Shown piece by piece: positions 3,732 through 62,200 of a DNA stretch of 64,000 bases (its first letter is position 1; the number at the start of each line of letters is the position of its first letter). This DNA is from Nereocystis luetkeana. Lineage: Eukaryota > Sar > Phaeophyceae > Laminariales > Laminariaceae. The notes below the pieces were generated by a model, which saw only the letters and a list, made by a program, of their open reading frames with translations, was not told the origin of the DNA and searched no databases. The translations under genes and the position numbers were made by a program. The stretch spans positions 6,670,878 to 6,734,877 of the forward strand of contig JARUPZ010000012.1 in assembly GCA_031213475.1 (NCBI GenBank). The letters run 5' to 3'.

Positions 3732-5324
3732 TTACGTACCTGGTACTACCGTTGACCACAGTGTACTCACTGCTGTGTTGTCAACGGTCTGCTCTAGCGT
3801 CGCAGCACTACGTTGTGCGCGATCGCTCGACTCCTGCATTGATCTGCGGTAAGGACCTAAACGTTGCCGTTCATACAGTTCGGGTGTCAACCCTCGTTCA
3901 AAAAATTCCAATTTCCAAAGCTTCCAACTCGGAGACTCCGGTACGTTCCGCTTGACGACCGAAATTGGAAAACTTGTCACGGTGTTTGTTCGTGAACGAC
4001 GTGACTGAGTCGGTTTCAGACGTTGCCATCGTGACAATATCTTCGACTGGACGCGCTGCGGCGTCCGCGGACAGGCACGTGGACTCAAAGGCCAACTTGG
4101 CCTCTGCCCAAGACTTCGGTACTGCTTTCGCCTCGTCATCCGGCAGTAACTGGTGGTCGCCACCAAACACGACTATTAATATTACGGGGGACCATAGTTA
4201 ACAGGACCTATGGTATACATAAAAGCTATATGTTTAACCATTTTTACTAGCAATATTTGGTCCTGTTAACTATGGCCCCCCGAAATAGTCCATTCATCAA
4301 TGGTGTATGGAACGCAATTGCCTCTTCCTTGTGGACGTACAGAAAGCACTGCATCAAGCACGAGTCTACTATTAATTACTCGTCGGTCATACCAGCACGA
4401 GACTTGAGCGACACTTTAACAAAAGCTTCGTACTGGTCCATTGGGTCCATTACAAAAAGCTCTTATCATCTTCGGTACCGAAAAAAAAAATCGTGACTGC
4501 AGCAAAATCGGTGGGGTTCATCCTCGAGTTTACTGCGGGTACAGATGGGGCTGCAGGCTTGAGCGACTGCGACGTACCAGACACGACAGGGGCGGAACCA
4601 GTATAGAAGGCACTCACAGCAGTCAGTAACGAGTTGACCTCTTCAAACGTGCCCTTGGCGAGATGCTCGGACACGAGGTTATTGATGGCGGTGATGTTGT
4701 TGCTGTTCAGCAGCGAAGAACTAGAACTCGCTCCTCGCTCTTATCTGCCGCCCCTGCTGTAGTAACGGCTGGGGGGACGTGAACGCCTTGCACTACGACG
4801 CCAACGGCGACGACGACGATCGTACGCATCGCCCCTTGAGCTGTAAGTACTCCGAAGAGGAAGCTTGCGATTCCTCTGAACGGACGTCCTCTCCGGCTCC
4901 CGCTGCGGCTCCGTCAGTACTTCGAGCAGCCTCGCCTACCCCAACTTGACGGACCGAGTCGCTGTGACGAATTTTTTTAACGATTCGTCACAGCGACGAT
5001 CTCTCGACTGTCGCCACCTCTGCGACCTGCCCCTAGGTGACTCGTACTTTCCTCGGCAGAATGACGTTCTTCCTCATCCTCAGCAGCAGAGGGATGTCCC
5101 TCTTCCTTGTCAGCAGAGGGGGGATGGGAAACAAGCTCGTTCATAGAGCTGGCGCGTCCGGAAGAAATGTTCTCACTAAAGTATCCCGCGAGACCGCAGC
5201 GCTGACGACGTCGCGCGCTGCGAGACCAACACCAGAAAAAAGAGACCAAGCCACCCGACGCCAAAATGTGGGGCGGAGCCCCGGGCAGGTTCTCTCTCTT
5301 ATGTGGTTGTGTTGTGGAGGACAC
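3732..5324 (-). pseudogene. Gypsy gag-like region
   Basis: Upstream of the protease (higher coordinates, minus strand), several short frames look like one broken gag gene. Frame 4674-4450 (MSEHLAKGTFEEVNSLLTAV) leads into FFGTEDDKSFL and then, in another frame, MDPMDQYEAFVKVSLKSR. After the MITE-A insertion at 4182-4285, frame 4170-3898 continues with WAEAKLAFESTCLSADAAA and SFTNKHRDKFSNFGRQ, and shifts frame again into FERGLTPELYERQRLG. The latter resembles the helical capsid part of retrotransposon gag. The uppermost frame (5324-4977) is acidic and may be leader or N-terminal gag. No CCHC zinc knuckle was found between 3700 and 3010, where one would be expected. Confidence 0.55.
4182..4285. 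repeat. MITE-A copy 3 (in gypsy gag)
   Basis: Same termini, with the right end slightly changed (CCCCCCGAAA). It interrupts the gag-like region. Confidence 0.88.
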
Positions 5325-7649: not shown

Positions 7650-7763
7650 TTATCACGGGGGGACCATAGTTAATAGAACCTATGGTATGGTATACATAAA
7701 ACCCTATGTATTTAACCATTTTTACTAACAATATTTGGTCCTATTAACCATGGTCCCCCGTAA
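7650..7763. repeat. MITE-A copy 4
   Basis: Shared inverted termini (left end TTATCACGGGGGGACC, right end GGTCCCCCGTAA), with TA on both sides. Confidence 0.88.
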
Positions 7764-9613: not shown

Positions 9614-11208
9614 GCTGCTGTTGTTGGTATGGTGGTGTTGGTGTTGTTGTAGGTGTTGTTGGTGTTGGTGCTGGTGGTGTTGTTGGTGGTGTTGGTGTTG
9701 ATCGTTTTGTTGTAGTTAGTAGTGTCGGTGTTGTTGTAGGTGTTGTTGATGTTGGTGGTGTTGGTGCCGTTGTTCTTGTTGTCGTGTGCGTGTTTGTTCC
9801 ACGCCAGGGAGACTTCGGCGGTCGATTCGCAATCTGCCCACCCATCGCTCCCGTCATTTAACCGCGGGCGCCCAACAACATATTGCAGTAATAGGCCGAC
9901 GGCAAGCCAACAGGCAGCATGCTTAGAGGGAAACGGCGCGCTTTTTGTGTTGACCTTACTGCACTACAGTACGTGCTGATCTACTGTGGTACAGCAGTGA
10001 GCTGACGGTACGGCAACAGCATGCTGTTATACTGGAGATAAGTGACGCGCTCTTTTTGTCGTTCACTCCGGCACGCACGCAACGCACGCAACGCGCGCGC
10101 GCCATTGTTGTTCTTCTTTTGTTTTGGTTCGATGTTTTTTTTTCTACGCAAAACTCGCGCAGGAGGAACGCCTCCGAAGCAGTCGGACGGCGGGGTTTCG
10201 CCACCGTCAGGAGGCGATGTCGCGGAAAGCGGGGAGGGTGAGGGAAGCTCGATGGCCGTGCCGTCGTCGCCGTTGCCGTCGGCACTGTCTGCCGGTAACG
10301 GCAACGGAAACAGTATTGGTGAGGTTTTGTTTTTTTACGGGTGGACTATGGTGCGTGTTTGCCCTGCCTGCGTGTGAACGTCGCTTTGGACCCTTAGACA
10401 GATAGATGGCGATCCATCTATAGATAATCTACTAATAGATCATTTAGATCCTGACTTGCCGTTATGAGATGCTGTGCAGGACATGTACAGTACATATCCC
10501 AACACAGGAAACGTGTCCTACAGTAGATGGTGCGGATTAGGGCGGCTTCTCCCGCCCAGCTGGATCATGCAGGTCAGGCGTCCACCTGCCCGGACAGTTG
10601 TTGTTGTTGCTGTTGTTGTTGTTGGTGGTGGTGGGGTTGGTGGTGTTGGTGGTGTTGGTGGGGTTGGTGGTGGTATTGTTGATATCATATTCACCCATTG
10701 CCAAAGGCACAATTCGATGCGAGTCGACGAGGGAAGAAAATGCTGAAAATCTTCTCGCGATAAAAATGAAGGCACGTACCGTAGCGGGAAGGGGGGAGAA
10801 GAGCCTGCTATGTGACCCCGGATCTGAGTTACGAGTTGGAAGGAGAGAGAGAGGAACATGTGCGAAGACAATAAATGGGAAGAGCAAAAAAAAAAAAAAA
10901 AAAAAAAAAATGCAGTCCGTGGTGACAGGACAGGCTCCAATAACTCTTGGAGTGGAAGAGTACCTCAGGAAATAATAGATGAAACAAATGCCGAGTACAA
11001 AAACAGCACAGCACGCACATAGCTGATGGCGCATTGTTGTACACCTCAAACAAGAAAAAATTGAAGATACATGAAACTGACTGAAGCGCATTGTACCACC
11101 CCGAACAAGAAAAAACAAACACATATTATGCACCTCCGACAAGAAAGGGAAATATAAAAAGTGATATCAACGTACATACGTGTATACGTATATATATATA
11201 ATACCTGG

Positions 11209-11239
<31 letters not shown>

Positions 11240-13931
11240 ATGCACATATGCATGCATCGTGCGTACGAGATAATTCGTAAAAACCGATTTTCTGTTGATC
11301 CGAGGTGTGGGACTGCGGTCCCGTTTTGGGAACAATTTATTTGGAATTTAAGTGCTTTGTCCCCAAAACGGCACTGCAGTCCCAACTTGTGGGACAGAAT
11401 CGTCGATTCCCCCTGCAAATCGAGATATCCCAGGCGGATATATTATCCCACCGACATTCCCGCGGTAGGCATCCCACGGTATCCCACGGTATTCCACGAC
11501 ATTTTCACGGTATCCCACCAACCTGTGGTGTCTCTCACGCTGCTGTTCACGTAATCGAACGTGGTACTCCTCCTCTCTCCCCTCGACCGGTTGCGCTGGG
11601 AAAAAAAGGAAAAAAAAAAAAAGGCTGTTGAGAACTCGGTTTCTCGCGGCCACTAATATATATCGTCCCGATAACTATTTTATGTCCTACTATAATAACT
11701 GTTGATATTTCAGGACAGATCTATTGCTGATCTGTATGGTCTGTATGATCTGTATGGTCTGCATGATCTGTATGGTCTGTATGATCTGTATGGTCTAGCT
11801 CATGTTACCTGGTGGGAGCGGCATAACCTGCACGATCTATGAAGCATATTTCTGCGCTGAATCTGTACTCCACAAATCCTGCACGGCATATCATAACGGC
11901 AATCAGGATCTATCTGATATATCTGATATATCTGATCTACAGTATCTGGTAGATTGTAGTCTGCGCGTGGGTGTGTGTGTTTTTTCCCATTATCACTTTA
12001 ACTTTCCAGCTTTGCTCGTACGTAGGGAGTTTTACTCTCAGCGATCTTCTGGACAAGCCTTGGTCACAGGTGTCGTCCCTCCCCCCCCCCTCCCCCCCCC
12101 CCGGTACGTGCCTTCGTTTTTATCGCGCATAGGGTTCAGCATTCCCACTGCTCGTCGATTTTCATCGAATGTAGCTAGCTCACGCTCTCGCGCTTTATTT
12201 ACGCTGATCAATTTATTCGTGCTAGGAAAAGTCCCTACGAGTAAGAGCTGGGCCAGCCAAGGTGCTGCCGAATCGGTTGATGGCCCACGCCCCGCTCAAT
12301 ACTATTAATACGTATTTGGATGCGATTTTGAGACACGGTGTTGATCATGCACCAACCCACAAATGGAAAGCAAGCCCCTTTTTCCTTCCTTTTTTTTGTT
12401 CGACAGATAAGATCGATACAAAGATCCGGAAAAATACAAAAGCGACCGTAACTCCTCTGGAAAAAAAAAGAGTAAAAAGGGCTCACTTTCCGTTTGTCTG
12501 CATGTGTCGTGCCAATACGAGGTTAAATTTTCTGGTGGAAACTCGCAAATTTGAACGTGGCATCGCAGAAAGACATAAAATGATCGTAATTACTTGTATT
12601 CTGTATGGAAACCGTGTTTTTGGCGATATCTCTCGATTGGTGGCGATATCTCTCGGACTAATATCGGTCTTCTCGCAGGGTTTTCAGCTATGTCTCCACC
12701 AATTTTCGCCGTGATCGGGAACGCCGATTACACTACGAATTTTGTGTTGAAAAGTTGGTGTTTTTGAGTTTTCGCCAATATCTGGTCGAGATCGAGTCGA
12801 ATTTTTAGCGTGTCACATTTGTCAAGTACATTTTTTTTTTTGCACATAAAGTGTTGTGTCAGGGTTAGTGCCTCCAAATTTCAAAAATCCTAATTCGTAG
12901 TGGTTATTGAGATACGACGAGCCGATGGGTTTTCCATTTTTTTGCTGGCCCAACTTGTATGCGCTCGATGAGACTCGAACCCGCCAAAAATGATCTCAGT
13001 AGGCACGCGAACCACCTACCAAGCCACCGGGGGTTGTAGACGGTGTAAACGAGTATTAGCATGCTGAACGCGTGTATTAGTACCGCCCTCTGTCAATAGC
13101 ATACGGACAACACGAAAACACCGCCTCCCTTTACCCAGCAACGATATCGAGTATACCCCGTCCCCCCCCCCCCTTTGCCCGGCAGCCAGCCCCGCGGGGT
13201 GCGCCATGCGTCCGATGCTGTGATACGTATTTTTGTCCCCCCTCCCGCCCTTGCTCTCTATGCTATGCGATAGTCACGAAAGCGTTATTTACCCCGTGCT
13301 ATTTACGGGGGGCCGTAGTTGATAGGACCAAATATTGTTAGTAAAAATGGTTAAAATATACCTGGTATACCAGGTTTTTATGTAAACCATAGGTCCTATT
13401 AACTATGGTCCCCCGTAATATCTGCCCTCAGATGGAGGTTCCTTACTTGAGGAGCGCTTCACTGTTAGTAAGTCACTATTAATAGCACGATTAGTAAGTC
13501 ATTATTAATAGTACTATTACTATTATTAAGTGATTAGTACTATACTAGTCATATTAGTACTGCTATTAGTAGTAAGTCGCTCTAAGCTTAGTTTTCGAAA
13601 AAAAAAACGAAGGTGCACTATGTATGGTTGATGAACAGTACCATGGCCTCGGCATAGAAAAAATCATAACGTGGTACGTACTGCGAAAAAAGGAATGCAT
13701 TCTGACGATTTTGGGTCAAGCCCCCCCCCCCCCCCGCCGTTCAGACAATATTTCCGCCCAAAAAGTGCTGCCACCTCTATTGTAGCACGCGTCCTCCCGT
13801 TCCGTGGGCAGATGTCTCGGAATCGGGGTCACCTGTATGTTCCTGTTTGTTGTTGTTTCCGTCGTGCTCGGGTTGTATGGGTTGTGTGCGCGTGATTCTT
13901 TTTGTTCCTTGCTCCGTGCTGTGTCGGGTCA

Positions 13932-13964: not shown

Positions 13965-15546
13965 GCCGCTGTACGTTCTGGCGCCTGCTGCTATCGCTAC
14001 TGCTGCTGCTGCTACTGCTGCTATTGCTGATACTGCCGCATTTCCCTTCTTCCACCTCTTGCGTCCTCGCCTTCTCCCGTCTCTGCTTGCTTCGTCCCCC
14101 GTGTGTTTCGTCAGCGCGCGGGGAGTTGCAGGGAGAATCGCGTTCTCCTCTGGCGGAGACAGGGGGTTTCCGTGTGAAGGGCGGGCGGGGCCTAGGCCTG
14201 CGCATCGGGGGCTTGATTCAAGTCGACGTCGGCATCTCCCGGTCTGGCATGAAACAGGTGGGGGGTGCTGTCCGGGCACAGACGGGCCTCGTCGTCCCCA
14301 TGCACCGTACGCGACGCGTATCCCTTTTCCTGCTGCTAAAATGCCCGTACACCAATTTCCAGTAGTTCACACGTCGAACAGCTCACGATCTAGATAATCT
14401 ATCTGATCTATCAGGGAGGACCATAGTAATCCGGACCCATCATGTACGCAAACATCTATATATGTCACTACTGTATTTTTACAGGGTATATTTTGTCCTG
14501 AACACTACGTATGTTCCCCGTAAAGCTGCCAGTACACAGGACAAAGTCTATACAGTATTTCTGAGGACCTATAGTAGTACTCAGGACTCACCATATATAC
14601 ACAAGAACCTGTATATTCCAGCATCTTTACTATTACGGGGGACCGTAGTAAATAGGACCAAATATTGTCAGTAAAAATGGTTAAATATATAGATTTTTAT
14701 GTATACCATAGGTCCTATTAACTATGGTCCCCCGTTTTTAGGCATAAGCGGTCCTCGTCGATATGGTTATTTTCATCCTCATCTCCCGTTATGTTGTCCG
14801 AGATCTGTGTAGATAGATACAGGAACAGCGCACAGGAAACATGTGCTTCAAAGTAGGCCATTGCAGGTTTAATGTACGGCTCCCACACACCGCGGAACAC
14901 GAGCTAGATCGTACAGATCGATAAAAAATATTTATTGCGACTACGGCCACGCATGATGTGCCCACGCTCGACCTATGGGAAAAAAAAACGTTATGAGCCC
15001 CCAAACGTTGGAGGTGTCTATTGCCGGGAGTAGGAACAACGGTGCCCCGTTTCGAAAAGGATGCGTGGCCAATGGTGAAATGACTCAAAGGCAAGCCCCC
15101 CCCCCCAGGTAAGGCACCCAAGAGGCAGTTACATAGTACTCCCATTGCTGTCTCTGGAATTGCCTACACCGGAAATTGAATCATAGAAGCTGTCATTCAT
15201 ATGCAAGTCCGCCTCACAAGCGGTTCTTAGTAGGATGCAGCTCACCCTTCTTGGGACTCGCCAGACACCTCACGTTTCGCTTCGCGCTTGGTGCAAGCAA
15301 TGTCTGCCTGGTCGGTGAAAACCCGACATGCTCCGTCCCGGCATTTGTAGGGATGCGAGGGTCTATGGTCATGCGACTACGGCCATGCATGAGATCGAGT
15401 ACATCTCTCCTATCAAGTAACCCCCTCCCCCCCCCCCCCTTGTCCCGCTCTTGACGGCCTCGCGTGCTGCCGCCTGCAACTCGTGCGCGTACCGTTCGTG
15501 TTTGTTTTTTCAGGTACACCTCGGGCTAGTCGATAAAAACTTCTGA
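8964..15546 (+). CDS. Unrecognised spliced gene, four phase-matched exons
   Basis: I do not recognise this protein. Four exons fit together by splice phase: 8964-9267 (ends phase 1 before GTTAGG), 10163-10318 (GCAG acceptor, ends phase 1 before GTGAGG), 14115-14257 (GTCAG acceptor, ends phase 0 before GTGGGG) and 15514-15546 (TTTTTTCAG acceptor, stop TGA). The product would be about 211 residues. Exon 1 gives AVVFWDVSAFRPVTWPRTP and then a run of about 20 alanines from a GCC/GCT repeat and a Pro/Gly-rich stretch. Exon 2 is Ser/Gly/Pro-rich. Exon 3 has the only folded-looking part (GGFRVKGGRGLGLRIGGL, IQVDVGISRSGMKQ), which runs into VHLGLVDKNF at the C terminus. An acceptor-like site at 9056 means the true 5' end may lie in an upstream exon. 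The consecutive phase matches are the main support. Confidence 0.45.
9120..9183. repeat. GCC/GCT trinucleotide repeat
   Basis: About ten GCC units pass into about ten GCT units, encoding the alanine run of exon 1 of the unnamed gene. Confidence 0.9.
9414..9530. repeat. MITE-A copy 5
   Basis: Diverged copy in intron 1 of the unnamed gene. The termini are recognisable, and the centre contains an (AT)n expansion at 9463-9480. Confidence 0.8.
9549..9625. repeat. GTT trinucleotide repeat
   Basis: Long (GTT)n tract next to MITE-A copy 5. Related GTT-rich tracts occur at 10595-10680, 21375-21600, 28828-28866 and 35945-35992. Confidence 0.9.
11308..11393. repeat. MITE-B (piggyBac-like), diverged copy
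   Basis: Two facing arms, GACTGCGGTCCCGTTTTGGG and CCCCAAAACGGCACTGCAGT, surround TTTGGAATTTAAGTGCTTTG, as in the better copies at 27605, 58182 and 61737. The ends are too worn to show TTAA. Confidence 0.65.
12005..12245 (-). repeat. SINE-like dispersed repeat, body
   Basis: Shares a long diverged alignment with 58430-58640 (GGACAAGCC, GGTCACAGGTGTCGTCCCTC, a poly-C run, CGGTACGTGCCTTC, GATTTTCATCGAATG, CTCACGCTCTCGCGCTTT). It lacks the tRNA-like head that the other copy carries. Inverted relatives lie at about 10700-10830 and 55615-55735. Confidence 0.65.
12955..13032 (-). repeat. tRNA-like sequence, likely SINE head
   Basis: On the minus strand it has an A-box-like TGGCTTGGTAGG and a B-box GGGTTCGAGTC at tRNA spacing. 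The acceptor and T stems do not pair well, so this is more likely a tRNA-derived retroposon head than a working tRNA. It resembles the head at 58628-58728. Confidence 0.55.
13312..13418. repeat. MITE-A copy 6, carrying a TACCTGGTA micro-insertion
   Basis: Standard termini with TA on both sides. At 13359-13367 the central ATATA block is interrupted by CCTGGTA and neighbouring bases compared with other copies. Confidence 0.88.
14411..14523. repeat. MITE-A copy 7 (degenerate)
   Basis: A worn copy: left end TCAGGGAGGACCATAGTAAT, right end GTTCCCCGTAA, with an AT-rich centre. It lies just downstream of exon 3 of the unnamed gene. Confidence 0.6.
14633..14736. repeat. MITE-A copy 8
   Basis: Good left terminus. 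The right terminus is damaged after CCCCCGTT. Confidence 0.85.
15107..15435 (+). repeat. Dispersed repeat R1, short copy ending in poly-C
   Basis: Closely similar to 29596-29925 and 40397-40722. Shared blocks include GGCACCCAAGAGGCAGTTAC, GTCTGCCTGGTCGGTGAAA and GCGACTACGGCCATGCATGA, ending in AGTA and a C-rich tract. No coding frame is conserved among the copies. Confidence 0.85.
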
Positions 15547-17080
15547 GGCGTCCCGGAACCACGAAGCCTCGTCCTGGCTGCTTTCAGAGCGTCATTTTTT
15601 GTCAAGCGGCATTGTTTTTGGAAGAGCGATAGTCAAGTTTCGACGTTCGAGGTTTCGCGTCTTCCGGGATGCGTTTAGAATGAGGACCATTTTTGTCAAG
15701 CGGCAATTTTTAGGAAGGGCGATTGTCGAAAGTGTTGATTTTCAAGGTTCGCCTCTCAGCCGTGAAGCATTTGGAGGAGGAGGAGGAGAAGGAGGAGGAG
15801 GAGGAGGAGGAGGAAGGGGAGTGTTCTCGTGAACCGGCACATTCTGAGAACGCCTCTCGCGGCCGGCGGGGTTTCCTCCAGGGTTTTGCTCGCAAACTGT
15901 TTGTAGGTGGCTCGGAAAAGCGCGAGCCATTGTCCTGAAAGCTCTGATCGGTGACGCGCCGCCGTGTGGTACTGTCAATACATACCTGGTACTATATATG
16001 ACTTTGGGCGGAAATGTAACGACCGTTTAGCCTCCGTATTACTGCCTGAACCTTCCTTTTATTTCCGTCCAATGGTTTAGAGGAAAAATCGCGGGACGAT
16101 TGAAGTACCTCTCTGTACAATGGTATACGGGAAACGAACGAAATCGAGACCCCCATTTTTTCTAGAGTCCCAGACAAAGGGAGGGGGGGGGGGGGGGGGA
16201 CAGGTTACGAAAATCAAGTCTTTTTTTTTAGAAAAAACATGTTTTACTAATTTTTGACAAAAAATCCCAACCCCCTATATACGTTGTCAATTTTCAATTC
16301 TGACATGGTCGCGAGCGTGGCTCCGCTTTTTCTTTTGTTTCGTGTACCCCTAGTTTGAATTGAGTCCAAGACACAGGGGAAGGAGGGGTTTCGAAAATCG
16401 AGTTCTTTTTTTTCTTTTTGCGAAAAAAACATGTTTTATATAATTCTGACCAAAAAAATCCCAACCTGCTGTATACGTAGTTAGTTTTCAATCCCGACAT
16501 GGTCGCGAGTGTGGACTCCATTTTCTCTTTTTTACCGTGCACCCCTACTGCAGCCTGCACAAATAATTCTAAGTAGTTTGTCACCAAAACGGGGCTGCAG
16601 TCCTAAAAGGATGAAGGATTAACGGTCCTTCTATTTCGGGCCAGAGTAATATCTGATGGACGAGAGAGACCGATTCTTACGTTAAAATATCAGGGAGCAC
16701 CCCAAGAAAGTTCTTCAGCCTTCATAGCCATCATAGCAGTACGCACTTGGTAAGACAGTGTTATTTGTTGTTCGTACCGCTGCTGCTTTCTTTCGCTCCT
16801 ACCCCAAATGCACACGTTATTGTTTCTGGCCGACGTCTTTAGCGAACGTAATCGTTCCTGCTTTTTGGTCGCTTTTTAAGCCCGACCAATCCCTGAAACT
16901 TCCATACCCCCGTCCAACCTTGTATCAACCGGAAATACCTAAGGAATAGCAGGGCAACGCTTGCCCTGCTCTACAATACGGTAGTATATGCACCTGGTAG
17001 GATGCGTACGGAGCGTACCGGTGGGGGACCATTTCTATTGTATAGCACAGCTGAGCTACAATCAGTAGTCGCGTGGGCTA
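15547..17080. other. Intergenic: tandem duplications, no gene seen
   Basis: 15595-15735 contains two diverged copies of a roughly 113-bp unit (TTTTGTCAAGCGGCA is shared). 16160-16590 contains two diverged copies of a unit of about 190-220 bp (ACATGGTCGCGAG, AAAAAACATGTTTTA). 16571-16612 is the right half of a MITE-B copy (ACCAAAACGGGGCTGCAGTC). Confidence 0.6.
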
Positions 17081-18282: not shown

Positions 18283-20095
18283 TCATTTCTTCCCCTTCTT
18301 CTTCCCCTTCTTCTTCACTCCCGACTGCGACGCCGCCGTCGCCGCCGCCGCTATCTTATCTCTCTCGGCCCTCGCAAGCGCCTCCTTGTCCGACTTCTCC
18401 TTGGCCAGCCTGTCCCTGCGACTCTTGAGGTTCGGCATCAACTCTCCCATCTTCTTCATCAAAGACGGCCCTGTTTTGTCACAAGTAACACGAGGACACG
18501 CGTACCACATAGGCGTTTTCCGGCGGGGGGGGGGGAGGGGTTAGTTGGGGCAAAACGAACCGCGTGAGCGCTGACCAGGTAGCTCAGTGGTTTATCCTAT
18601 ACCAGGTAGAAACGAACACGGGGGGATCGGGGACTCGGGGAGGGAGGGAAGGGGGGGTTGGAGAGAGGGGGGGGGGGGGGGGGAGGAAGGAAGGACGGCA
18701 GCGAGGGAGGGAGGAGCATCGCGGTTCTCTCATATTTCCTGAGTGTGCATCTCTTGTTATCTTACTCACGATCTGGCACTTCCGGATTCCACGGGACGCC
18801 GTCTTCGTCCACAAGCCTAACTCTGACGCGCCCCAGCACCCACGGCTCCCTCGAGTACGCCTTGTAGGGCTCTACTGCGTGCCACAGCTGCAGAAACTCC
18901 AGCACTTGGGACATGTCTTCTACGGTTGGCGAAGGGCCTGGGGTTGCAGTCCATGGCGAGGGAGGGAAGGGCAGGCACCGGGCAGCATGTGGGGAATTAT
19001 TTATCTCAAAGCCTCACAGGGAGGGTCCGCGGTCTGGAGGGGAAGGGGGGGGAGGGGTCGAGAGGGGAACAATAGGCTGGCACGCCTCCGTGAAACGTTT
19101 GTTTTGAAACCTATGTACAAACGCGGCAGTCGTATAGCGCAAACGTTCGGGCGCCAAAGGGTTGGACGACGTGGTGCCGCGAAAATTAGCCGATACAAAT
19201 AACTATTTCCGCACCGTAGCACCATCGTAGCGTGCGACTTTCGTTAACGTGGTGCAAGCAGACGAAGCACATTGCACATTCCCTGAGCGTTCCGTCTAAC
19301 GGCACCTATAGGCGAGAGGCTGCTGCTACTACTACTACTACTACTACTACTACTGTACCTCTTGGTTAGGCGTAACGTATCGTAGTGTGGCCCGTGAAAA
19401 AAAAGGCACCAAGAGAGCGTCTCGCGCGATCGGGTCGGCATCCAAGCGGCGTGCGCAAGAGAAGGAAAAACAAAACGGAGGAAAACGATCCATCCACCCG
19501 GTTCGGTTCTCCTTTCTTTTCGACACGGATGGCGGTGGTGACGTCCTGGAGGGCACACCGCCCAAACGCGACCGTGGTTCGCAATCTTAGCGGAAAGACC
19601 CTCATTCGGACAAAGGCGCAAAAAACGCACCAAAATAGATGTTTAGAACTAATTTATCTAAATTCAGGAAAGTTTGATCCCTGTGAACACTCACTCGTAG
19701 CGGAAGAGAAACGGGGCAGGGTGACATGTGTGCCACTGGGCGACATCAACCACCACGCGGTGCGCACGCTGGACCGCACTGCACGGCGGAGCCGACGTGA
19801 GACTCTCGGTCCAACCAACGTGGCGCGATTGACCAATCAGGTCGATCAGCCCACACGAGACGGTCGGTCCCCCCGCTACCAACCCCTCTCGGGGAGCGGT
19901 AGAAAACGAGGGCGACGTAGACAAAGGGAGGGGGTTGCATATTGCGTATACAACCGCGCCTAGCCGGGCCGGGAGGATGGGCGTCGTGGGGGGGCACTCA
20001 CAGGCGCTGGCCTTGGGTATCCGTCTCCCCTTCTTGATGGTCCTCGTCGAGTCGATGTTGTTGGGCCAGATCACCATCAGCTTCGACACGTCCAT
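18283..20095 (-). CDS. SRP19: Signal recognition particle 19-kDa protein
   Basis: SRP19 binds the SRP RNA and organises it for SRP54, so it is needed for co-translational targeting to the ER. Three exons with matching phases give 149 residues, close to the usual 140-150. Exon 1 (20095-20002) starts MDVSKLMVIWPNNIDSTRTI and continues KKGRRIPKASAC, the conserved RNA-binding N terminus. Exon 2 (18937-18770) carries CPSPTVEDMSQVLEFLQL, then KAYSREPWVLGRVRVRLVDE, including the family's YSR and GRVRV motifs. Exon 3 (18470-18283) begins with PSLMKKMGELMPNLKSR, passes through a charged helix, and ends in the lysine-rich tail KKKGKKKGKK that the family usually has. Splice sites are GT-AG (GTGAGT and GTGAGTAAG donors; CCCCAG and AACAG acceptors). 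ATG at 20095 is the only sensible start and gives no leader peptide, as expected for a cytosolic/nucleolar protein. Confidence 0.95.
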
Positions 20096-21176
20096 GGTTC
20101 GCAGCGCCTCTGCGTGCCGGTGGATACCACGCGCCCGCCCCGGCCGAACGCAAGGGGGAAAAAAACGCATCCGAGTGAGAAAGGGGCGCATTGATTTACG
20201 ACATACCTGGTAACGCGGAGGCCTGTGCTAGCGATAGAACATTAAGATCGATAACGGACCAAACAAAATCCCCTCTCGCCCCCCCCCCCCCCCCCCCCTC
20301 TCCCGCCTCCAAACCCGCCGCGGGCAAAGCAAAACGCCGTTGAGGTTGAGCTACGCACGTGAAGTGGTAACCGCAACAGCAAACGAAGCACAAAAATAGT
20401 AGGCGAAACACCGACTGAGTTACAGTAGTGAAGCCTATTTTACTACCATGGGTTGTGTTGTAAAAAATTAAAACCCTTTCACTATGACGGTGTACCCGTA
20501 CCGCAATACATCTAACGCTGATTCCAAGTACTTTGTCCACGTACTGTAGGTGCAGTTACTATAATACTACCCGTAGCTGTAAAAAGGAGATGACATCCCT
20601 GAAAAAATATAAAACTATCAGGTAGCACCGAAGCTGAGGGAATAAAACTGCTTGCAAGCAGAGTGCAGGAGGGGGGGGGGGGGGGGGGTGTACTCGATAG
20701 GAGAGATGTACTCGATCTCATGCATGGCCGTAGTCGTACCAGGTATGACCATAGAGGGGGGGGGGGGGGCAGTGGGGAAAGGGGTTTATCGCCAACAGCA
20801 GCAGCAGCAGCACCACCAGGCATCTCACGCTGCCTGTACAGCAGTCTAGACTAGACAATTAGGGGGCACTAGAGAGGAGTTACCCCACGAGTACCCGTCT
20901 TGAACCGGTACCCGCCAACTTTGGGGAAAAAATACTCGGGTGCTCGCGAGTATTTACGACCATTTTTGGCGGGTAACCGGGACCTGGGTACTCGTCCAAA
21001 AAATGGGGTACACCCGGGCCTCAAATATTCGGCGAGTATGAAGTGTTAATCGTACCAGTGACGGGTATGTGCAAGTCGGGAAATACTCGCGAGTACCCGG
21101 GTAATTGGCAGAAGGGTAACACCTCTAGTAGGCACTACCTGGTATTTTCTATGCATGGGAGAGAGCGCAGGAGCCG
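20096..21176. other. Intergenic, upstream of SRP19
   Basis: Holds poly-C/G runs (20280, 20670, 20757) and an inverted R1 fragment at 20695-20760 carrying a TACCAGGTA micro-insertion. 20880-21125 is rich in GAGTACCCG/CGGGTACTC-type words. The SRP19 promoter should lie near 20100-20300, but I see no clear TATA or other element. Confidence 0.5.
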
Positions 21177-47522: not shown

Positions 47523-49673
47523 ATGATTGAGGTGATCTGCAACGATCGGCTGGGAAAGAAGGTAGGTGGTTACGTGGTAGCGTAGAGCCAGGTGCTTACC
47601 GACGAGATACAAAGCAAACCACGTCTAAATGCACTTGTCCAGCATCGATGCCCTTGTCGAAGGACGACGTACAGAGCTGTGCCCCCGGACAAAAGCTTGG
47701 GCCCGCAGTTTACACGCAGGCATGCAGATATTTCGCGCGCGTTTCACGTATATGCAGCGGTGCATGAGGCCAGTCTCGGCGTTCTCTGGGCACGAGTATC
47801 GGCGTACCGGCGTTGTTTTGTGTCACGCCCTTGCCTCCAACCTCCCACAAGCCAACAGTGCGCAATACAGCGGTAGTACCTGTAGCAGTATTAATAATTA
47901 ATATTAATAGCATTAAGAGTATTGACAGTGGTATTATAGTACTGTACCTGGTATAATATTAATTTTAATAGTAAGCAGTCAAAGGTTGAAGTTCGCTCTA
48001 AAACCCAGTATTTATGTGCCGTACCAGGTACTGCTGTACTGGTACGTATGCGTATGTTGACTCCGTTCTTGTTGAGCTCCGTCAAGCGTCAACATTCAAC
48101 ATACCGCAAAATATCGTACTGCTGTAGAATGTTACAAGGTGGCTCGTCGTCGTTATAAGCTAAAACCCTGCTATTGGTGATGTAAAAGTGTGTCCTTCTG
48201 TGTCTTCTTTCCTCGAGCGTTCTGAGAGCGAGTTCGTGGTGGGTTGGGTGGTGGATGGTGGGTGGAGTGCGTTGATGGGTGAGTGGGTGGGACTGTAGGG
48301 TGTGGGGTGTGTTATATCTGGCAGCCCAGCAATACGTACGCCGCATCTCGTCAAATCTGACGCCGTGCTCTACGAATCAACTCTCTGTCAACTCTGGAGC
48401 CCGTTCGCAACGGCACCGCAGATACAACAGTGCGTGTAGTCGCCTCCTCGATCAGATCAGTGAGGCTTACCACGTATTCGCAGACCCAAACACTGATGTT
48501 TCATTGGTCAACCATTAGTAGTGATGTTTGATTGGGTTAAGGTTAGGGTTAGGGTTTGTCCGCTTCGTTAGCTTTGTCTCGTACCTAGGGTGTGCCAACC
48601 ATTAAAATATCTGCGAATCTACCCTCTCCTCGACACCACCCCTGGCCGGCACGCTCTCCTCGGCGGCCAACGCTCGCTCGCGTGCTTGCCCCGGCAGGTG
48701 AGGGTGAAGTGCAACGAGGACGACACGATCGGAGACCTCAAGAAGCTAATCGCTGCGCAGGTCGGGACGCGACCAGAGAAGATTCGAATCCAGAAGTGGT
48801 ACACCGTCTACAAGGTAATATGAAGTAATATCGTACGAGGTATCATTCATTGTGATCTCGTGACCTCCCTCTCAGCCCTCTGCGCTGCCGGCACTTGCTC
48901 CCTTCTTGGCCTTGCCCTCCCAGCTCGTTATTTCTTGGACGGTGTACCGGCGGTCATGATATGTCTTTTGGCGGCATATACATATGTACGATGAGATGTC
49001 TTCGGACGGAGGATATGTTGCGGTCACATCTCAACCCCTGGCAATAACGCCTTTCCGATGCAACTGAACCTCCACGGGTCATGTATATCCTCGATGTACA
49101 GTATTATGTATACTTCGAAGTATGTTGTAGCAAGAGAAGTCTCCTACGGTAATATCTTGTACGCAACAGCAGTGGACGCTGATCATGTATACTGGTACAG
49201 GATTAGGGGGTACTCGTGGTACGATCGTATCGAGCATTCACGGCGGGGATAGCTTCTTCCCCACATCGTTCACGTTGCCCACCCACCTTGACATCGCCCA
49301 CAATCACGCCGCGGGGCGCACGGATGAATGCGGAGGGAGTCTAAGGAGTAGGGGCAACCGGGAGGAGTCTCATGCCGTTCCCTCTTGTTCGCGAGGACAT
49401 GTCCTCTTTCTGCATTTCGCGTCGGCCAGAATGACGCCAGGAATATAGCCCCCTCGTTTTCTTCTGCTCTCCCCTACCTCATCACCATCGCTGTCCAATC
49501 AAACTTAGTACGGATACGTGCTCTATTTCCAGTGTCTCGCTTACTCCCATCCCGACACCCGACGCGTCAACGCCTCCTTCCGTTTTGTATTTTGCTCTCC
49601 CGCGCAGGACCACATCACCCTCGAGGACTACGAGATTCACGACGGCATGGGGTTAGAAATGTACTACAACTAA
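47523..49673 (+). CDS. UBL5: Ubiquitin-like protein 5 (Hub1)
   Basis: UBL5/Hub1 is a small ubiquitin-fold protein that binds spliceosome components without covalent conjugation and affects splice-site choice. Three exons, all phase 0: 47523-47561, 48698-48814 and 49608-49673. The product is 73 residues, exactly the usual length. Exon 1 encodes [13 protein letters not shown]. Exon 2 begins [20 protein letters not shown] and has [17 protein letters not shown]. Exon 3 encodes [20 protein letters not shown] and a final Asn. The protein ends in the di-tyrosine region, not in a Gly-Gly, as is typical of Hub1. Donors are AAG|GTAGGT and AAG|GTAATA; acceptors are GGCAG and GCGCAG. It is head-to-head with TFIIF-alpha. 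Confidence 0.97.
48537..48560. repeat. Short TTAGGG-like interstitial repeat
   Basis: GGTTAAGGTTAGGGTTAGGG in UBL5 intron 1. It is a telomere-like word repeated two to three times, and may be chance. Confidence 0.5.
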
Positions 49674-51379
49674 GCGTACCTTCTGTTGGTTGTTAATAAC
49701 CTCCAGAGCACCCCACAATGGCGGTGCGCGCGTGCGCGCGGGCACAGGGTGTGGGGGAGGTGGAGCGTCAAGGGTCGGAGATCACTGGAGACGTGTGGGG
49801 ATATATAGCGGTAGCCCATTTTCTTTGTCGAAACGCTGAAGTCTCGTGTTGGTATTCGATCTTGAATCAAGCTGGACCCCACTGGGTTTTCCATCCTGAG
49901 GATGGAATGGGCTGGCACTTCTTTCGTGTCTCTCGGTTGCGGTGTTCTATGTATGAAAACATATAATAAACTGAAGCTGTGAGATCGAAAAAAATTAAAT
50001 GTGTCCCAGGTGTATGTCCTGAGCATCCCATGCCTGCATTGCTGAATTTCGTTCTTTACGATCATCGAGATGGCGACCGCGCTCTTTTGCACGTCGGTTT
50101 AATTGCCGTCGGTATCGTAGCGACAGGCTTGTTTGGCTAACCCATCTTGTCCACTAGATCTGCGTTGGTTGCACAAGTGTCAACTTGTGGTCCCAACTTG
50201 TGGTCTCTGGAACGGATTCAGAAAACTTGTCTGTCTGTCCGATCAGGGTCACTCAATGGTCACCTACGTACAAATTTCTTTCGAAACGGCTTCGCCCATG
50301 CCGCACGCATCAGGTCAAAGTCCTGGCGGAGGCGATCGTCATGGTCCGAACCACACCTCTTCGGCTGCCCTGTGTGAGGAGTTATCAGAGTTGACTTCCA
50401 GCATCCCAATCGGGGTGATGGGTCGAGCAGCGGCAATCGCTCCCGCGAAGGCAGCGGAAAAACTCTACGTCAAGTCTATTTTCATGTGGAATTGGGTAAA
50501 TTTCATATTTGTACTGTCGTACAGCAGTTGTGCTGCAAGCGATAAGCGGCGCGGCAATACAAAGCAATGACCACCTACGAACGATTTATTTCGAAACGGC
50601 TACCCCCATGCCGGACGCATCAGTTCGAAGCCCTCGCGGAGGCTTCGCCCCTCTCCATCCCTCCCTTGCTCCCTCTCCCACCGTCCCTGTCTCGCTCGCT
50701 CCCTGCCGGAAGCCCCCCCATCCTTGCTTTCTTGTAACGTACCGACCTGGTACCTGGTAGGTACTCTGACCTCTAAAACGATATATAGTGCGGCCCTAAA
50801 CAGTCATGCCAGTTACGGGAGTACACGTAACTTCCCGTACTCAGATTGAGTCGTCCGTACTTGTTTTTTTCGGTTTAAGAGTTGAGCCCGATCCACAGGT
50901 CCCCCCACCCCCCCACCCTGTTATCTATAGTGGAAGGCCCCGCACACAGCACACAGCAACCGCACACAACCCCAATACACAGCACACTACACACCTGTAA
51001 CGGCTATGGCTGCTGGGAGCGAGCCCTCGTGGGGGGCGCTCATTGCTCAGACACCCGAGGATGTAGGCCGTTTTTTTGCCGCAATTGCCGTCCGTAATTA
51101 AAATTGCTGATTTACCGTAATTACACGTCCGTACTTGCTTCCATCTCCCGTAAGTACCATCGCCGGTCCTACAGGGGTAAACAGAAAAAACTTCAACTTT
51201 GAAAGTTGGTATTCGAACCTGTCCTGTTTGTCAACTCACAACAATATACGTATCAGAACTTTTTGCCGAGGACAGATCTGCAGATTTCGGCCCGGCGGAC
51301 CCTCACACGACGGATGGAATCCCCCGCCTGCGTCTATTTTCTGTACGCGTATGCATTTACCTTTGGCCTTCAAGCCTAA
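49674..51379. other. Intergenic after UBL5, one direct duplication
   Basis: 50255-50330 and 50565-50645 are diverged copies that share TTTCGAAACGGCT and GCGGAGGC. Short frames are present (for example ELTSSIPIGVMGRAAAIAPA at about 50385) but no recognisable family. Confidence 0.5.
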
Positions 51380-52257: not shown

Positions 52258-53929
52258 TAAGCTTCAAATATAATACCTGGTACCTGGTATAATTTAATGA
52301 ATTCAATACAACACCAAGTATATATGGCATTATTATACATTGCGCATGGTAGCAGACGAGTAGCCGTATGTACTTATTTCATCGCCAGTTGTTAACGTTT
52401 TCATTATTAATAGTACTCATGAAATTATGTGGGGAATGGAAGTTGGGAAACGGCTGGCAGAGAGGCGTATGAGGGATACTGCTGATTTACGGAAGGATAC
52501 TCGGTTTACATTGAAATGTCCTCGACGCTATATTGTCGGAAGGCAAGCATAATAATAGTCGTGTATTAGAACACTACACATTGTCGGATGGCAAGCATAA
52601 TAATAATAGCAAAAGTACTCGTACCGCAGTCCCGGTTTGGGGACAAACTGCTTAGAAATTGACGTGTCCCAGGCTCCAATAACTCTGAAGTGGAAGAATA
52701 CCTTGGTAAGAATAAAAACAAGCAAATAATAATACACATGATATCTAACAAGATATATAGTCTATCCTAGTACACACACTTGCGGAGTAAGCACGCCAAA
52801 CCGTTCCTTGGTCGTGCAATAACAGTGCTTTAAACCGTTGTGACGGACACCCATCTCGCACGCCATGTTCGGCTGTCGGGCTGTAATTATCTTCTTGGGT
52901 ATATATACGTATTACCGGTGAGGGTTTTGACCAATTTTTATGTGCCCTATACTATACTACTGTACGAAGGCACCTCAAGATTCGTGGTTGATTTGCGATG
53001 TACATAATCGCGTCCACTTTTATTTCGCAACCATAGGAACGCGTGAGAAGCTCAAGGGGTGTCTTAACGCCAATGCTCTAAATTCTGAAACGACGGAAAT
53101 CGGTGTTACATCAACAAGGCTTGCACCTTGAGTGCGCGCTCGCGACACGCCAGCGCCAATACGCGTAGGGCATGCTCGGTACTGCTGTGTAAACCACCAA
53201 GGAAAGTGGACGCGCCGGGATTTTGTTTTCATGCCAGGACCCCGAGATTAGTGCCTCTTATTTCTACGAGGAATAAGAGATGCCATTAATATGATGACGT
53301 CCGCTAGCCTGGGGCAAAAAAAACCGTCAGGCAAGACCGCGTAAGACCAATCGTTGTTCGGACCTGTGGGGCACGGTGAAACCAGTTAGAACCAGTTCGT
53401 TCACCCCTGGCAACAGTGGCACGCTACTATTGTCACATCAGCAGTAGTATCCCTGTTGGGATTCAAAGGGGAAAAAACAACAAGAACGAATAACACCTAC
53501 TCTCATCGGCAACTGGGCGACGGAATGATACAGCTACAGTAGCAGTACACATGGGTTTTGCAGGGGGTTGCATGACACGCGCTGCATGGGTGTGCCCACC
53601 CGTAGTGCTCCGCGCCCACGTTAGCACTTCTCACATTCTTGGCCGCTATATGTGGGTCCCCAAAGGGATAAGAGTGCACAACATACCCACCCACGAAAAA
53701 CAAACACCAGCACATGGTATACAAATACGCGTAGGGCTGCCCGCTCGCAAGGCAAGCAAAAACTTTACCCTCGTGGCGGATATGAATGGAAAAAACTCGC
53801 AGGCGACCTGGGGTAACGGAAACGCGCTGCGCTGTACCGGCGCCGTGGCCACTTCCGCAACAATGCATCGCCCGAAGGACATTGAGCGTCATCAGAATCG
53901 TACACACACCGTCACACCAACAGGCATCA
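52258..53929. other. Intergenic, no gene seen
   Basis: 52620-52660 is a partial MITE-B arm (CCGCAGTCCCGGTTTGGGGA). 52670-52730 matches other dispersed fragments at 10920-10975 and 36030-36085 (CAGGCTCCAATAACTCT). 52274-52289 holds two tandem TACCTGG units. Confidence 0.5.
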
Positions 53930-56277: not shown

Positions 56278-58181
56278 CTACAAAAATCTCTACAGACAAA
56301 AAGAGAAAGCGGTCAACGTCGAGGTTAACTTCGGGAAGCTTCATTCAAAAAGACAAACGCGACTTCCTGCGGAGGAGAGCTGCCTTCTTACATGACACAC
56401 AGCAGCAAGCAGAAACAGCGCTACGACCTCCGGAGGAGAGCCGTCTTGTTGATTGTAAGTAGGAACAGCACTATGAGCGCCTACCGGATACCTGGTAGGT
56501 TTTTAAGCTACGAGTATCCTTCGACAGCCCGCAGTCGGCACGCTTCCGGGTGTACCTGTCTTGGCCTTCCACGCTATCTAGGTGAAACCCCGATGCCGGG
56601 GACACCAACAAATTATTCTCGAACAGGAGAGGAGAGAGGAGACAGGAGGCGTTTCAATCAGGTTCTTGGTCAGACAAGTGGAGCTGAGCTACAGCAGTAG
56701 CCAGGGTATGCTTCACTTTGAAATTTGAAATTTTGAACGCGAAAACGGGTTGGATCGGTCGTGATCGGTATTAGACGCAGAACTAGAACGAGACCGCAGA
56801 GATGGGCTTTCACCTTACCTCTCGAGCGTCAGCACCTGACTGCAGTTACAACCGAAATAAAAACAACAGCCACCGCCGCTCCTTCAGTGTGGTTCACCTG
56901 GTGTATCAGTATATCAGCACCTCATCAGCTTTGCTTGCGAAGCGACTCCCTCTCCCAACAAACTTCCCAAGGCTTGGTTGGCCCTGCCGCTGCAGTTATT
57001 TCTGGTACGAACAGGGTCAAGGTACGAGTATACTCGATGATACCCATCGAGTATACGATCTGAAGCCTCGACAGTGGTTTCAAATTTCACCTGCGTCCTA
57101 TTCTCGCTACCCAGATGAGACGGCTCCAGTTTTCCGACGACAAGCTGCCCAACACGTGTCAGTTATTTACCGACTCGCGTACTTCCCGTAGCTTGTGTTG
57201 TTTCGTCGCACCAGGTGTTGGCGGCAGCGGCACACAAAACGACAATATGTCGGGGTTGTGACGGCTCATGAACCCACCCTATACATGCCTTGCAGAGGTA
57301 GTGAAAACCCCGAATATTGGATGCAGATTCAATTCATTATTATCTCACCTCCAGCAGGCCACCTCACGAGAACCGCCCAAGACAACGGGAGAAGAGACGG
57401 ACAAGTAGCCGAAGAATCTTACTGATGGAAAACACACAGCGAAGGCGACGCGCGCGTCCCGCTTGCGTGTGGCAGGGTGGGAGACAGGTGAGTCCGTTCG
57501 TTCGATCGACGCGTCATTCTATTTGGTGTGCTACGTACTTGGACGTCAGCAGGGCCTCTGACTCTCGCTCAGTCGCGGGTGGCGACACGCTTGCTTTGCT
57601 CAGGACTGCTAGGGTGCGCGAGACAGCGATATCTCGATCCCGCTCGCATACGCCAGGTTTAGTTAGGCCTGCTGGCTGTGCGTCAAGGCGTCTTCCATGT
57701 GTGACCTCCGTGTTCTGCCAGCTACCAAGCACGCTCGTTCTTTCGGAAAATTCTCGGGTTGTCTGTTGCCCACCGATGGTACACGTAGCAGTACATCGCA
57801 TCGAGGATCATGCAGAGTGACACAGGAGGCAGGAGGAGTCACTACGAGTAGTTTCGCCAGCAAGTCTATACGAGAGAAGTCTCTTGTAGGCCGGGCTTCG
57901 CCACCAATCGCACAGTAACTACAGCAGCAGCAGCAAGCAGGAGCAGCATCAACAGCAACGATGATAGTAACATCAGCAACGACAACAACACGAAAAAGTA
58001 GGAGTAGAAGCACGAATACGAGTACCTGGCACCTGGTAGCTTGGTACTACGTACCAGTACGAAGGTGAACGAACTTTTTGCCATACAAACATGAACCGCT
58101 GACACCGTTCGAACCAAAATCCAAAATCCAAAATCAACCTTCTCGTTGGGTGGTCCCTCTATAGTGCAGGTTGAGCATTAA

Positions 58182-58271: not shown

Positions 58272-58360
58272 TTAATAGTGCCGGCTGCTATTAATGTTAA
58301 GACCTTAACTTGGTTCCTGTGAAATCGCTTGGTAGCCAGTGTGGTTGTGGTTCGTCTTGA

Positions 58361-58759: not shown

Positions 58760-59237
58760 CGCTTGAATAGTGCTGGCTGGGGCTGTGTCTGTGCCTGTAA
58801 AGTTGCTTGGCACAGATGGGATTAACGACAGCAGTGTGGTAGGGTGCGGAGTATATAGTGCCGGTTGCCGCTATATATAGTGCCGGTATTGTTGGCTGGC
58901 GCATTTTTACCGGCACTGCCCTATTGATAAAGAGACGATTCTACTTTGCTACAACAACACTGATGTTGTACGTACGTGAGATACCCGGTACGAACAAGGT
59001 ATCTACCATATCTCCCCATCACGAGGAATAAAAATCATTACGTACGCAGTGACACTCGGCGTGCTGGATGTGTCGACCAGGCAACAGATACTACAGGCGA
59101 TGCGGTTTAATGTGAAAAGACAACTCGCACACACGCCAACGCAACTATTTCGATCATCAACCTCACGTGACCTCCATCGCCCCCCCCCCCCCCCCCCTCC
59201 CCCCCCCCACCCCCGACCCCCCACCCCTCACCAGGTG

Positions 59238-62200
59238 ATGCTCTGCGCCTGCCTCGGTCTCAGCGCACGAACAATCGTTCCTACAACAGAGGCATGGCGC
59301 CCAGCGCCTTCCCCCGCGCGAACCCCTACCACAAGAGACAGAGGAGGGGCAGGAGAAAGGGTGGCCTTTTCCCCAGCCGCGGCCTGGAAAAAAAGCTTCG
59401 TTCCCTCTACAACGCCCAGGGAGACATTACGAGCACATACTACCTCCCCTTTTTCAAAGGCCGATTTCGTTAGTAGATTGGGAAACTCGAGACAGGGGCA
59501 CCGTCGCGCGTGGGGGGCGAATGGGGCGACCCGGCGCCGGGTCCCTCCGGGTGGTTCCTTGAGCCGTCCTGGTCGGCCGCTGATGTCGATGGCGGAGGAG
59601 GATGGCAGCGCGGAGGGTGTCGATTACACCGCGGTGCTCAGCGCGCTCACGATTGCTGGGCTGGGCGCGATCTACTACGGGTAAGTGGATTTTTCCGATA
59701 ATACAGCGTACATACAGCAGTGTACTCCGGTCTCTACGAATAGATTTGCCAGGTACCAGGTATATGGTAGTCAGGGCCCACGATGCACCCGAAAACAAGA
59801 TATCCCCCTATGTTTGCGCACCATAATTGGTCCTGATTAGTATTACGGGAGACCATAGTAAATAGGACAAAATATTGTTACCACTATTAATAGTGAAAAT
59901 AGGCAAATACATACCTGGTAGGTTCTTGTGTCTACCGTAGGTCCTATTTACTCTATCCCCCGTAATATAATGTGTACGTTCCACGGTAATAAAAACTCGC
60001 GCAAGTATATATATATACAAGGCGCTTCGCTCCGCGGGCGGCCTACGCCGCCCGCTACGCTCGCTCAGGAAGGAAAAAAGTACATCAAATTATGCAAAGC
60101 GAACAGAGGTTCACGATTGAGTTTAGTGTTTTCAAGGATCGTAATTGCAAACCGGCGGCTTGATAATGCCAAGAGTCCCGCCGCCATGCTTCAGGAAAAA
60201 ACAGCTCCGACGTCAGCTTGGATGCCACATATACGCTTCGCGTCGCGGATGTCGTACGTACGTACATACACCCCAGGTAGGGTACTACTGTCTGTACTTA
60301 TTTTCTTCTTTCGATATGCTCTATGTCTGTACTGTATGTACGAAGAAAGCGAAAGCACAGCACGGCACAGCAGCAAAAACAATGAAAATGAGACCGAAAA
60401 CTCGGAAAGGAAAAAAAATCCCCGTCCCCTCTCGTGTAATATTTTTCTGCCTGATTGGAACACCTTACACCCGGTCGAAAAAAAAAGAAGAAAAAATCGC
60501 ACAGAAGAGCTTCTCTCTCAGCCTCGTACGCCGCCCGCCCCTCTCGCGACCACCTCGCTACCGATTCGGTCCGGGTAAAGCTTTTATCACTCTCTGCCAC
60601 AATCAGCCCCGTAGCCCGCCCCGCGTGAAGCCCGGTGCTCACCGTGGCCGTCGTTCGCCAGCTCGATGACGTCTGTGTTCAAACTGCACACCTCCCTCTT
60701 TCAGCTTCAGCGTGGTCGCAAAAATAAGCACCGCTCGTATATTATCTTGCCATCCCGAACGACCTTTATAAACTCGTACATACTCTATCAACAATCATAA
60801 ATCGAAGCCAGACAAAGCCCGTTCATGCATCCCTCGTGTCTCGAGGCACACGCGACGCCTAGGCACGAAAGCGGCGACCGCGCTCCTTGCAACCCCCCCT
60901 CTACCCGCCAGCACCCGCTGGCACCCGCGACGGTGCCGGGTCCTCCCGCGATGCCGTGGTCGGAGAACACGCACGCACACGAAACGAAAGAAGAAAGAAG
61001 GAAGAAATAACCGAGAAAACAAAGAACTGCTGGAAAGGTCCGGCAAGTAATGAAAGGAGGCGGTTTGGAAGTGGGAGCTCTGAGAGGCCAGGGATGCACC
61101 GGCCGAGCACGCTCAGGGGTTGTGATCTAAGTATGTAGTTCTATATACAAGTTTTCCCTTCGGAGTGGCATGAGCGTAGCGTGTAAGAAGACTCTTGCCG
61201 AAATACGTATTTGGTGGGTTGGTTTGAACTATTCCACCAATTGCAGTTGTATGTGCTGCAGTTGGGGCAGTAGCTCAAATGTACCTGTTAACAACCAAGT
61301 AGATATTAGTATAAGGAAAATAGTAGTGGAACATGCAGATGAGGGTGACGCAAGAGAGCAGTTCTAATGACCGAAAAAGCAGGTAGTAAGTATGTATTAC
61401 AGCGGTTATGAGATATGAAGGCGACATGAGCGTGATATGCAACTTCGACAGTATACATATATATGTGTTATGCGCAGGTTATTTGTGGTCAACTTGTATG
61501 CGCTCGGCTGATTTTGGAGAAGTTGCGAGAATCGTTCGTGCACATGAAAGCAGCTCGGTCGTACATGGGATTCTGGTTCAGCCAGATCCAAAGGGGTACA
61601 GCACTATTCATACCTTTTTTTTCTGGACGTGGTGTAAATTAAAATCTCGCTTTTTTTCTATTAATATACCAGTGCCGGTACATGTTACTACTGGCTGTAC
61701 GTGCAGCACGAACATACCGTAAAAACACCTGGAAACCCCTTTAGAACTGCAGTCCCGTTTCGGGGACGAAACTACTCAGAATTTGAGTGGTTTCTCCCCA
61801 AAACGGAACTGCAATATGCCATAAGAGGGTTAAGACAACACCCCCTCCCCTGAGATAATTTTTCCGAGACTACCTATATGCAGTAGCTTCCCTCGCAAAT
61901 ACAGCAGTGTATAGGGGGCAGCAAACACACGTGAAAATTGACGGCGTTGGGAAGATGTCGTCGAGACATTTCTTCTGAGACACATGGCTCGGCGTATTCA
62001 CCCGTCCCGGTATACACCACTCCGACCGGTAATATAAGCAGCATTTAGGATATAATAAGAACGTAAAACGTGGGCTATGATACCGGTCAGAGTGGCATCG
62101 AGAAACTCGGCGTGGAAGAACGGTCCGGGGGGGGGGGGGGGGGTGCTGTCTCGCGTGTTTTGGGCCATGTGAGTATTCACGGGGATGCTATTTGATTCTT

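Follow-up and report, generated by a model that had tools for sequence, protein, structure and literature searches.

Why does one 9-nucleotide palindrome recur throughout a stretch of algal DNA? We considered 64,000 nucleotides of the brown alga Nereocystis luetkeana (assembly GCA_031213475.1, contig JARUPZ010000012.1, positions 6,670,878 to 6,734,877 of the forward strand), called the window below. The palindrome TACCWGGTA, where W is A or T, has 28 exact sites in it (0.44 per kb). The chance expectation is 0.43 sites, with a maximum of 3 across 100 dinucleotide shuffles, and a second-order model gives 0.6. The word ranks first in the window among the 16 words TA-xyWyx-TA and 256 W-centred 9-mer palindromes. 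A preliminary description of this DNA had proposed two sources, a TA-targeting cut-and-paste element with CCAGG-type ends or a distinct micro-insertion process. TACCWGGTA is quite probably the end-joined excision scar of a TA-targeting cut-and-paste transposon with 3' overhangs of five nucleotides, and for brevity we call its copies scars. The chance expectation given earlier, about 0.5, agrees with ours, and 27 of the 28 start coordinates were right; the remaining one, 11212, should read 11202.

Most scars in the window are single units. The form TACCTGGTA is found at 3737..3745, 11202..11210 (within an AT dinucleotide run), 15983..15991, 20204..20212, 21136..21144, 31816..31824, 41943..41951, 47945..47953 and 56489..56497, and the form TACCAGGTA at 18600..18608, 23794..23802, 24040..24048, 27789..27797 and 48022..48030. 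Some have decayed neighbours: TACCTGGTA at 21889..21897 is followed by a decayed second unit TACCTGGTG, and decayed units adjoin TACCTGGTA at 50751..50759 and TACCAGGTA at 59754..59762.

The genome count proposed in the preliminary description bore out the excess. The 465-Mb assembly contains 182,395 copies of TACCWGGTA (0.39 per kb, a density that the window resembles) vs 1,744 copies of the reversed word used as a control. At 7 bp each, the inserts sum to about 1.3 Mb, or approximately one scar per 2.5 kb. The 282-kb sample consists of the window and stretches L050-L053, L056-L057 and L058-L077, and contains 128 scars. L054 and L055 were left out because they overlap L053; L056 and L057, which overlap by about 1.2 kb, were both retained, so that a few sites are counted twice. 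Stretches L050-L057 and L090-L099 were chosen because they bear the motif. The unselected control (200 kb) is L058-L077, for which the first 1.6 Mb of contig C12 was sampled at even intervals with 20 stretches of 10 kb. The 354-kb set adds L078-L099 to the 282-kb sample and thus includes selected loci. In the 282-kb sample the runner-up among TA-N5-TA words has 17 copies vs 128 for TACCWGGTA, and the flanks are distinct at 101 of the 128 sites. One-mismatch relatives of the word are also in excess (132 vs 64 expected), hence many scars have already mutated, and the process that made them therefore looks old or long-lasting and not like one burst.

Comparison of repeat copies shows that the word is an insertion. 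In a copy of repeat R1 the scar TACCAGGTA at 20737..20745 reads TA-CCAGG-TA where other copies carry a single TA, a clean gain of 7 bp, as had been claimed. There are 25 R1 matches overall; 23 alignments cover the site, which is empty in 21 of them and filled in one, with one unclear case. Empty partners in the window, all on the minus strand, lie at 15362..15432, 29850..29921 (100% identity over 41 aligned bases around the site) and 37919..38001. The second repeat, MITE-A, has 13 insertions of at least 3 bp among 31 near-full copies, and three of the 13 are of the CCWGG type. These are a 7-bp gain at about position 2249 of L079, the scar TACCTGGTA at 59912..59920 in the copy 59841-59968, and the compound scar at 13359..13376, where TACCTGGTA plus TACCAGG make up a 12-bp gain. 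The other insertions include one TA-TGG-TA and one TA-CAG-TA, the remaining ones being of different kinds. The gain at 59912 is real, but it is less clean than the preliminary description had it: net +5 relative to the consensus, between two TAs in an AT-rich TATA context. Since R1 and MITE-A copies show empty sites, these repeats originally lacked the motif, which is what the proposed alignment of repeat families was to decide. Empty copies have a single TA and filled copies have TA on both sides, that is, the target and its duplication are those of Tc1/mariner elements. This evidence comes from few repeats, because most scar clusters have no alignable partner in a self-comparison of the 282-kb sample.

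MITE-A itself is a 105-bp palindromic element, TA-TTACGGGGG...CCCCCGTAA-TA, with 38 copies in about 354 kb. Its copies in the window include 1920-2024, 4182-4285, 13303-13420, 42068-42172 and others.

The word might be a selected motif, that is, a protein-binding or methylation site, or else an artefact of assembly or library preparation. CCWGG is indeed a known enzyme word, that of Dcm/EcoRII. However, a selected motif would not yield an exact 7-bp gain at TA inside repeats, the excess of mutated copies speaks against a library artefact, and the flanks are distinct at most sites. We hold this explanation to be most improbable.

The middle base of the scar is informative about how it would be formed. 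In the unselected 200 kb it is A in 46 cases, T in 43, C in one and G in one, with about one expected for each; in the window alone it is A in 9 and T in 19. Thus the A/T ambiguity noticed earlier holds, A and T being about equal and C and G at background. About equal A and T and nothing else would follow if, of two CCAGG overhangs that are identical and hence cannot pair, one were retained. The proposed sequence of events is as follows. Firstly, a transposon with terminal inverted repeats (TIRs) beginning 5'-CCAGGG would insert at TA and duplicate it, with a preference on both sides for W at -7, A at -6 and W at -4, and against G at -2 and T at -1. Secondly, at excision the transferred strand would be cut at the element tip and the non-transferred strand five nucleotides inside each end, and each broken flank would retain a 3' overhang CCAGG. 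Finally, end joining would keep the version of either strand with equal chance, leaving TA-CCAGG-TA or TA-CCTGG-TA. CCAG and CCAGGG would come from occasional cuts or trimming at four or six nucleotides, CCGG from losing the unpaired middle base, and many of the tandem arrays from fresh insertions at the TA of existing scars. In this scheme the element itself, the sequence of its ends past CCAGGG, the places of the cuts and the way the break is repaired are inferred from the scars.

The sequences around the TA are not random. Flanks resembling a decayed scar were removed beforehand. The remaining 146 flanks from the unselected stretches (14 dropped), brought to the same orientation, prefer A/T at -7 (p = 5e-11), A at -6 (p = 1.5e-5), A/T at -4 (p = 9e-6) and A at -3 (p = 1e-3); G is scarce at -2 and T at -1. 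The preference is symmetric and spans seven bases on either side of TA, in 200 kb away from the window. The flanks from the window (40, with 6 dropped) show a weaker tendency in the same direction, with p = 0.005 at -6 and p = 0.03 at -7. Such a TA-centred symmetric preference is what characterises an integration complex; it argues against both slippage and a selected motif.

Scars stand next to each other more often than expected. The 28 sites of the window fall into 23 clusters, with exact tandem arrays at 22907..22929 (three scars; middle bases A, T, T), 23653..23683 (three scars; T, T, A; followed by the 6-nt variant TACCCTGGTA at 23674) and 52274..52289 (two scars; T, T). Directly adjoining scars account for 15 of the 128 in the 282-kb sample vs 1.0 expected. 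The 89 sites of the unselected stretches form 9 adjacencies, and in 7 of these the neighbours share the middle base. For the whole genome we used the pattern of a scar followed by TACCWGG and then by a base other than T, which has 2,086 matches; 100 of these were listed, and pairs and extensions among them were counted by eye. The two stacked units share the middle base in 63 of the 100 and differ in 37. Since stacked pairs mostly share the middle base, part of the stacking is duplication; since more than a third of those listed differ, many are not simple duplications. The arrays and the agreement between neighbours would suit a 7-bp tandem repeat that grows by slippage as microsatellites do, or a word spread by gene conversion. 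However, a heptameric tandem repeat should occur mostly in head-to-tail arrays, and of the 80 clusters in the unselected stretches 73 consist of one unit; the differing pairs, and the location of the sites at TA with a target preference, do not fit either. Slippage or conversion is thus a very unlikely source of the word.

Arrays were also observed in other contexts. A repeat family represented in L095 and L100-L104, with CCAAT-like sequence upstream, contains a TACCAGG array that varies but always occupies the same position. A 23-mer search of genome contigs returned 40 stretches from prokaryote assemblies. Tandem TACCWGG heptamer arrays are present in bacterial metagenome assemblies (L010-L049) of Acidimicrobiia, Chitinophaga, Planctomycetota and others, a few with further single copies (for example L031, 3263; L043, 5438; L044, 157 and 5052).

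Variant scars point to the lost ends. The unselected stretches contain the A-version of a 6-nt variant five times and the T-version, TACCTGGGTA, once in 200 kb, with about 0.6 of each expected. The window contains the A-version three times and the T-version not at all, with about 0.2 of each expected; besides the copy at 23674, TACCAGGGTA is found on the minus strand at 34488..34497 and 46476..46485. CCAGGG exceeds CCTGGG 13 to 1 in the 354-kb set, selected loci included, and genome-wide TACCAGGGTA has 11,422 copies vs 409 for its reverse. Among the 100 listed stacked places, GGGTA continues the second unit 24 times after an A centre and never after T, in a count by eye to which one repeat family contributes 8 of the 24. 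Shorter forms are raised in the unselected stretches as well: CCAG (19 vs 7.6 expected), more than its T-version CCTG (12 vs 9.9), and CCGG, the scar minus its middle base (16 vs 3.6). Because CCAGGG exceeds CCTGGG, and because CCAG and CCGG are also raised, the variants suggest that the lost terminus began with 5'-CCAGGG at both ends. Taken with the genome-wide excess, the insertion at TA, the A/T centres and the target preference, they support, as far as sequence comparison goes, the earlier proposal of a footprint left by a TA-targeting element with CCAGG-type ends.

The preliminary description had also proposed a search for TA-flanked transposons ending in CCAGG/CCTGG; none was found in the 282 kb or in 12 DDE_1 loci. 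Along with the duplication among stacked scars, this result and those that follow in this paragraph weigh against an excision scar. The TIR scan of the window (elements up to 6 kb) revealed no CCWGG-ended element, only pairs of a scar with a scar or with a chance word. The scan of the 282-kb sample (up to 9 kb) revealed no resident CCAGG-ended element beside the 128 scars. It retained 148 TA-flanked pairs. Where these start with CCWGG, one or both of their sides coincide with a scar (CCWGGTA); a candidate of this sort is L061 4327-4441 (115 bp, 14/18). The stretches scanned are 3-10 kb long, and longer elements, or those cut by a stretch end, escape the scan. Single ends of long elements would still share sequence, and few candidate ends did, the clustering of such ends covering the 282 kb and L078-L089. 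The 76 TACCWGG sites of the unselected 200 kb that are not followed by TA yielded one alike pair only, probably two sites of L075 located 74 bases apart, and neither of the two TACCAGGG ends there pairs up. No element was recognised among the 100 listed of the 2,086 stacked places. The largest shared extension among those listed (9) lies within a repeat that itself contains a scar, and three further candidate pairs have alike extensions, CCTGGCA twice and CCAGGAA, none being CCAGGG. The genome has no match to DDE_3 at E 0.001. DDE_1 transposases have 28 matches, and CCAGG termini were not seen in the 12 of the 28 loci examined with 1.5-kb flanks; inverted repeats among these 12 are limited to L086, L087 and L088. 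The 13 scar flanks from the same loci, few as they are, show no preference at -7 (p = 0.71). The 3-nt variant CCA shows no clear rise outside the window (36 vs 29.6 expected).

The CCA variant was dropped as support altogether: it is raised in the window, where the TACCATACCATA repeat contributes, and weak elsewhere. Two candidate elements were likewise rejected. The TACCAGGTACCAGGGTATGGTACGAGAGG family resembled the end of an element; as conservation in the fetched copies extends upstream of it, it is an internal part of a repeat. A 354-bp insertion in L065 starts with TACCAGG; it was not counted, as it has a poly-T start and its right end does not mirror CCAGG. A 16-mer search of viral contigs returned 9 contigs with two or three copies each, by a rough estimate not above chance, and MITE-A and R1 words have no occurrences in viral contigs.

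There are three ways to account for the element. Either a few copies of it have been hopping for a very long time, with end joining after each excision, or it is gone or rare, or the scars arose without residence. The last of these is what mainly survives of the alternative of a distinct micro-insertion process, as aborted integration of the same element end. In this case a TA-targeting transposase would join to TA nothing but the 3' ends with their single-stranded tails of five nucleotides, the host would trim the body at the boundary between single and double strand, and gap filling would leave TA-CCWGG-TA, with the element never resident. Scar, target preference and A/T symmetry would all be identical to those of excision, and this reading best accounts for the lack of an element among so many scars. 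However, we know of no precedent for such a process, it demands precise trimming at both ends, and a few active copies with ordinary end-joined excision could reach the same number over a long time. We consider aborted integration unlikely. If it were true, a 7-bp insertion would have reached about 180,000 places from a rare or extrachromosomal element, and the genome would bear the traces of a mutagen that acts by insertion yet deposits no mobile element.

In the case of excision, past transposon activity would become countable position by position, even though the element was not found in the parts searched. The scars would be a natural record of target choice, of host break repair and of scar age, and with them the stagger printed for TA-type transposons would grow to five bases. 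They also introduce shifts of 7 bp and create TA targets, and ordinary repeat annotation could easily overlook them.

Other scar-like words and features were observed alongside. The word TACAGCAGTA/TACTGCTGTA occurs 32 times vs 0.7 expected in the unselected 200 kb and is also present in the window; its flanks are distinct in 35 of 37 cases in the 282-kb sample, and its mixed forms are near background (CAGCTG 0, CTGCAG 2). A different TA element may have left it as a 6-nt scar. TACGAGTA/TACTCGTA, the form left by Minos, is raised in the unselected stretches (45 vs 7.6), with window copies at 12236, 30495, 45003 and others; a 4-nt scar class is possible. TATTAATA is strongly raised in the genome sample (49 vs 1.4), partly inside TACTATTAATA; it could stem from MITE-A, whose ends are TT...AA, as a 2+2-base scar, or be a separate repeat. 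As for coding sequences in the window, a reverse transcriptase piece has a relative in Ectocarpus sp. (59% identity) and an exon of a VTT-domain gene has one in Ascophyllum nodosum (76%), both of them brown algae, in agreement with the host; closer relatives exist for both sequences.

Which known systems come closest? The pogo-like DDE_1 elements of this same genome are one class. The one whose TA-flanked ends are clear, a 2.2-kb element at about 231-2426 of L088, has inverted repeats and a DDE_1 match. Its ends CAGTACCGGCC would give scars of the TACWGTA class, whereas the scar considered here needs CCAGG; TACWGTA is itself raised in the unselected stretches (111 vs 35 expected), and an L088-type element could be behind this. 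Among titles and opening lines of abstracts we recognised no description of such scars in brown algae, a literature search with the motif words themselves gave unrelated titles only, and the word "footprint" does not occur in the main text of PMC12477816. The closest resemblance is to the excision scars of Tc1/mariner elements (Sleeping Beauty, Mos1, Minos, Osmar5), where the target is TA, the TA is duplicated and a few terminal bases remain between the copies (PMC7827188, PMC2874221, PMC7913693). There too a W centre arises when one strand of a near-palindromic end is retained, end joining being the source (PMC7827188, PMC2874221, PMC7913693); the Sleeping Beauty scar, for example, is printed as TAG(T/A)CTA (PMC2874221). 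Stowaway and Osmar footprints in grasses are similar, keeping 1-4 bp of the TIR between TAs, but they concern two genes and variable scars, whereas here there is one scar type at genome scale (PMC1925063). The differences from Tc1/mariner scars are the number, about 182,000 with the element not found in the stretches searched, and the length, as five bases dominate here and the printed range is 2-4 bp (PMC7913693), which also tells against the excision reading. The target preference at -7, -6 and -4 differs from that of ZB, reported there with a ATATATAT core (PMC7913693). In behaviour the word resembles a Tc1/mariner excision scar. It is not assigned to this superfamily, since neither a transposase nor an element can be tied to it and its five bases exceed the printed range. 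Brown algae do have such elements: Ectocarpus has 11,912 Mariner-Tc1 copies in 17 families, mostly non-autonomous miniature inverted-repeat transposable elements (PMC12477816), and we count this in favour of an excision scar.

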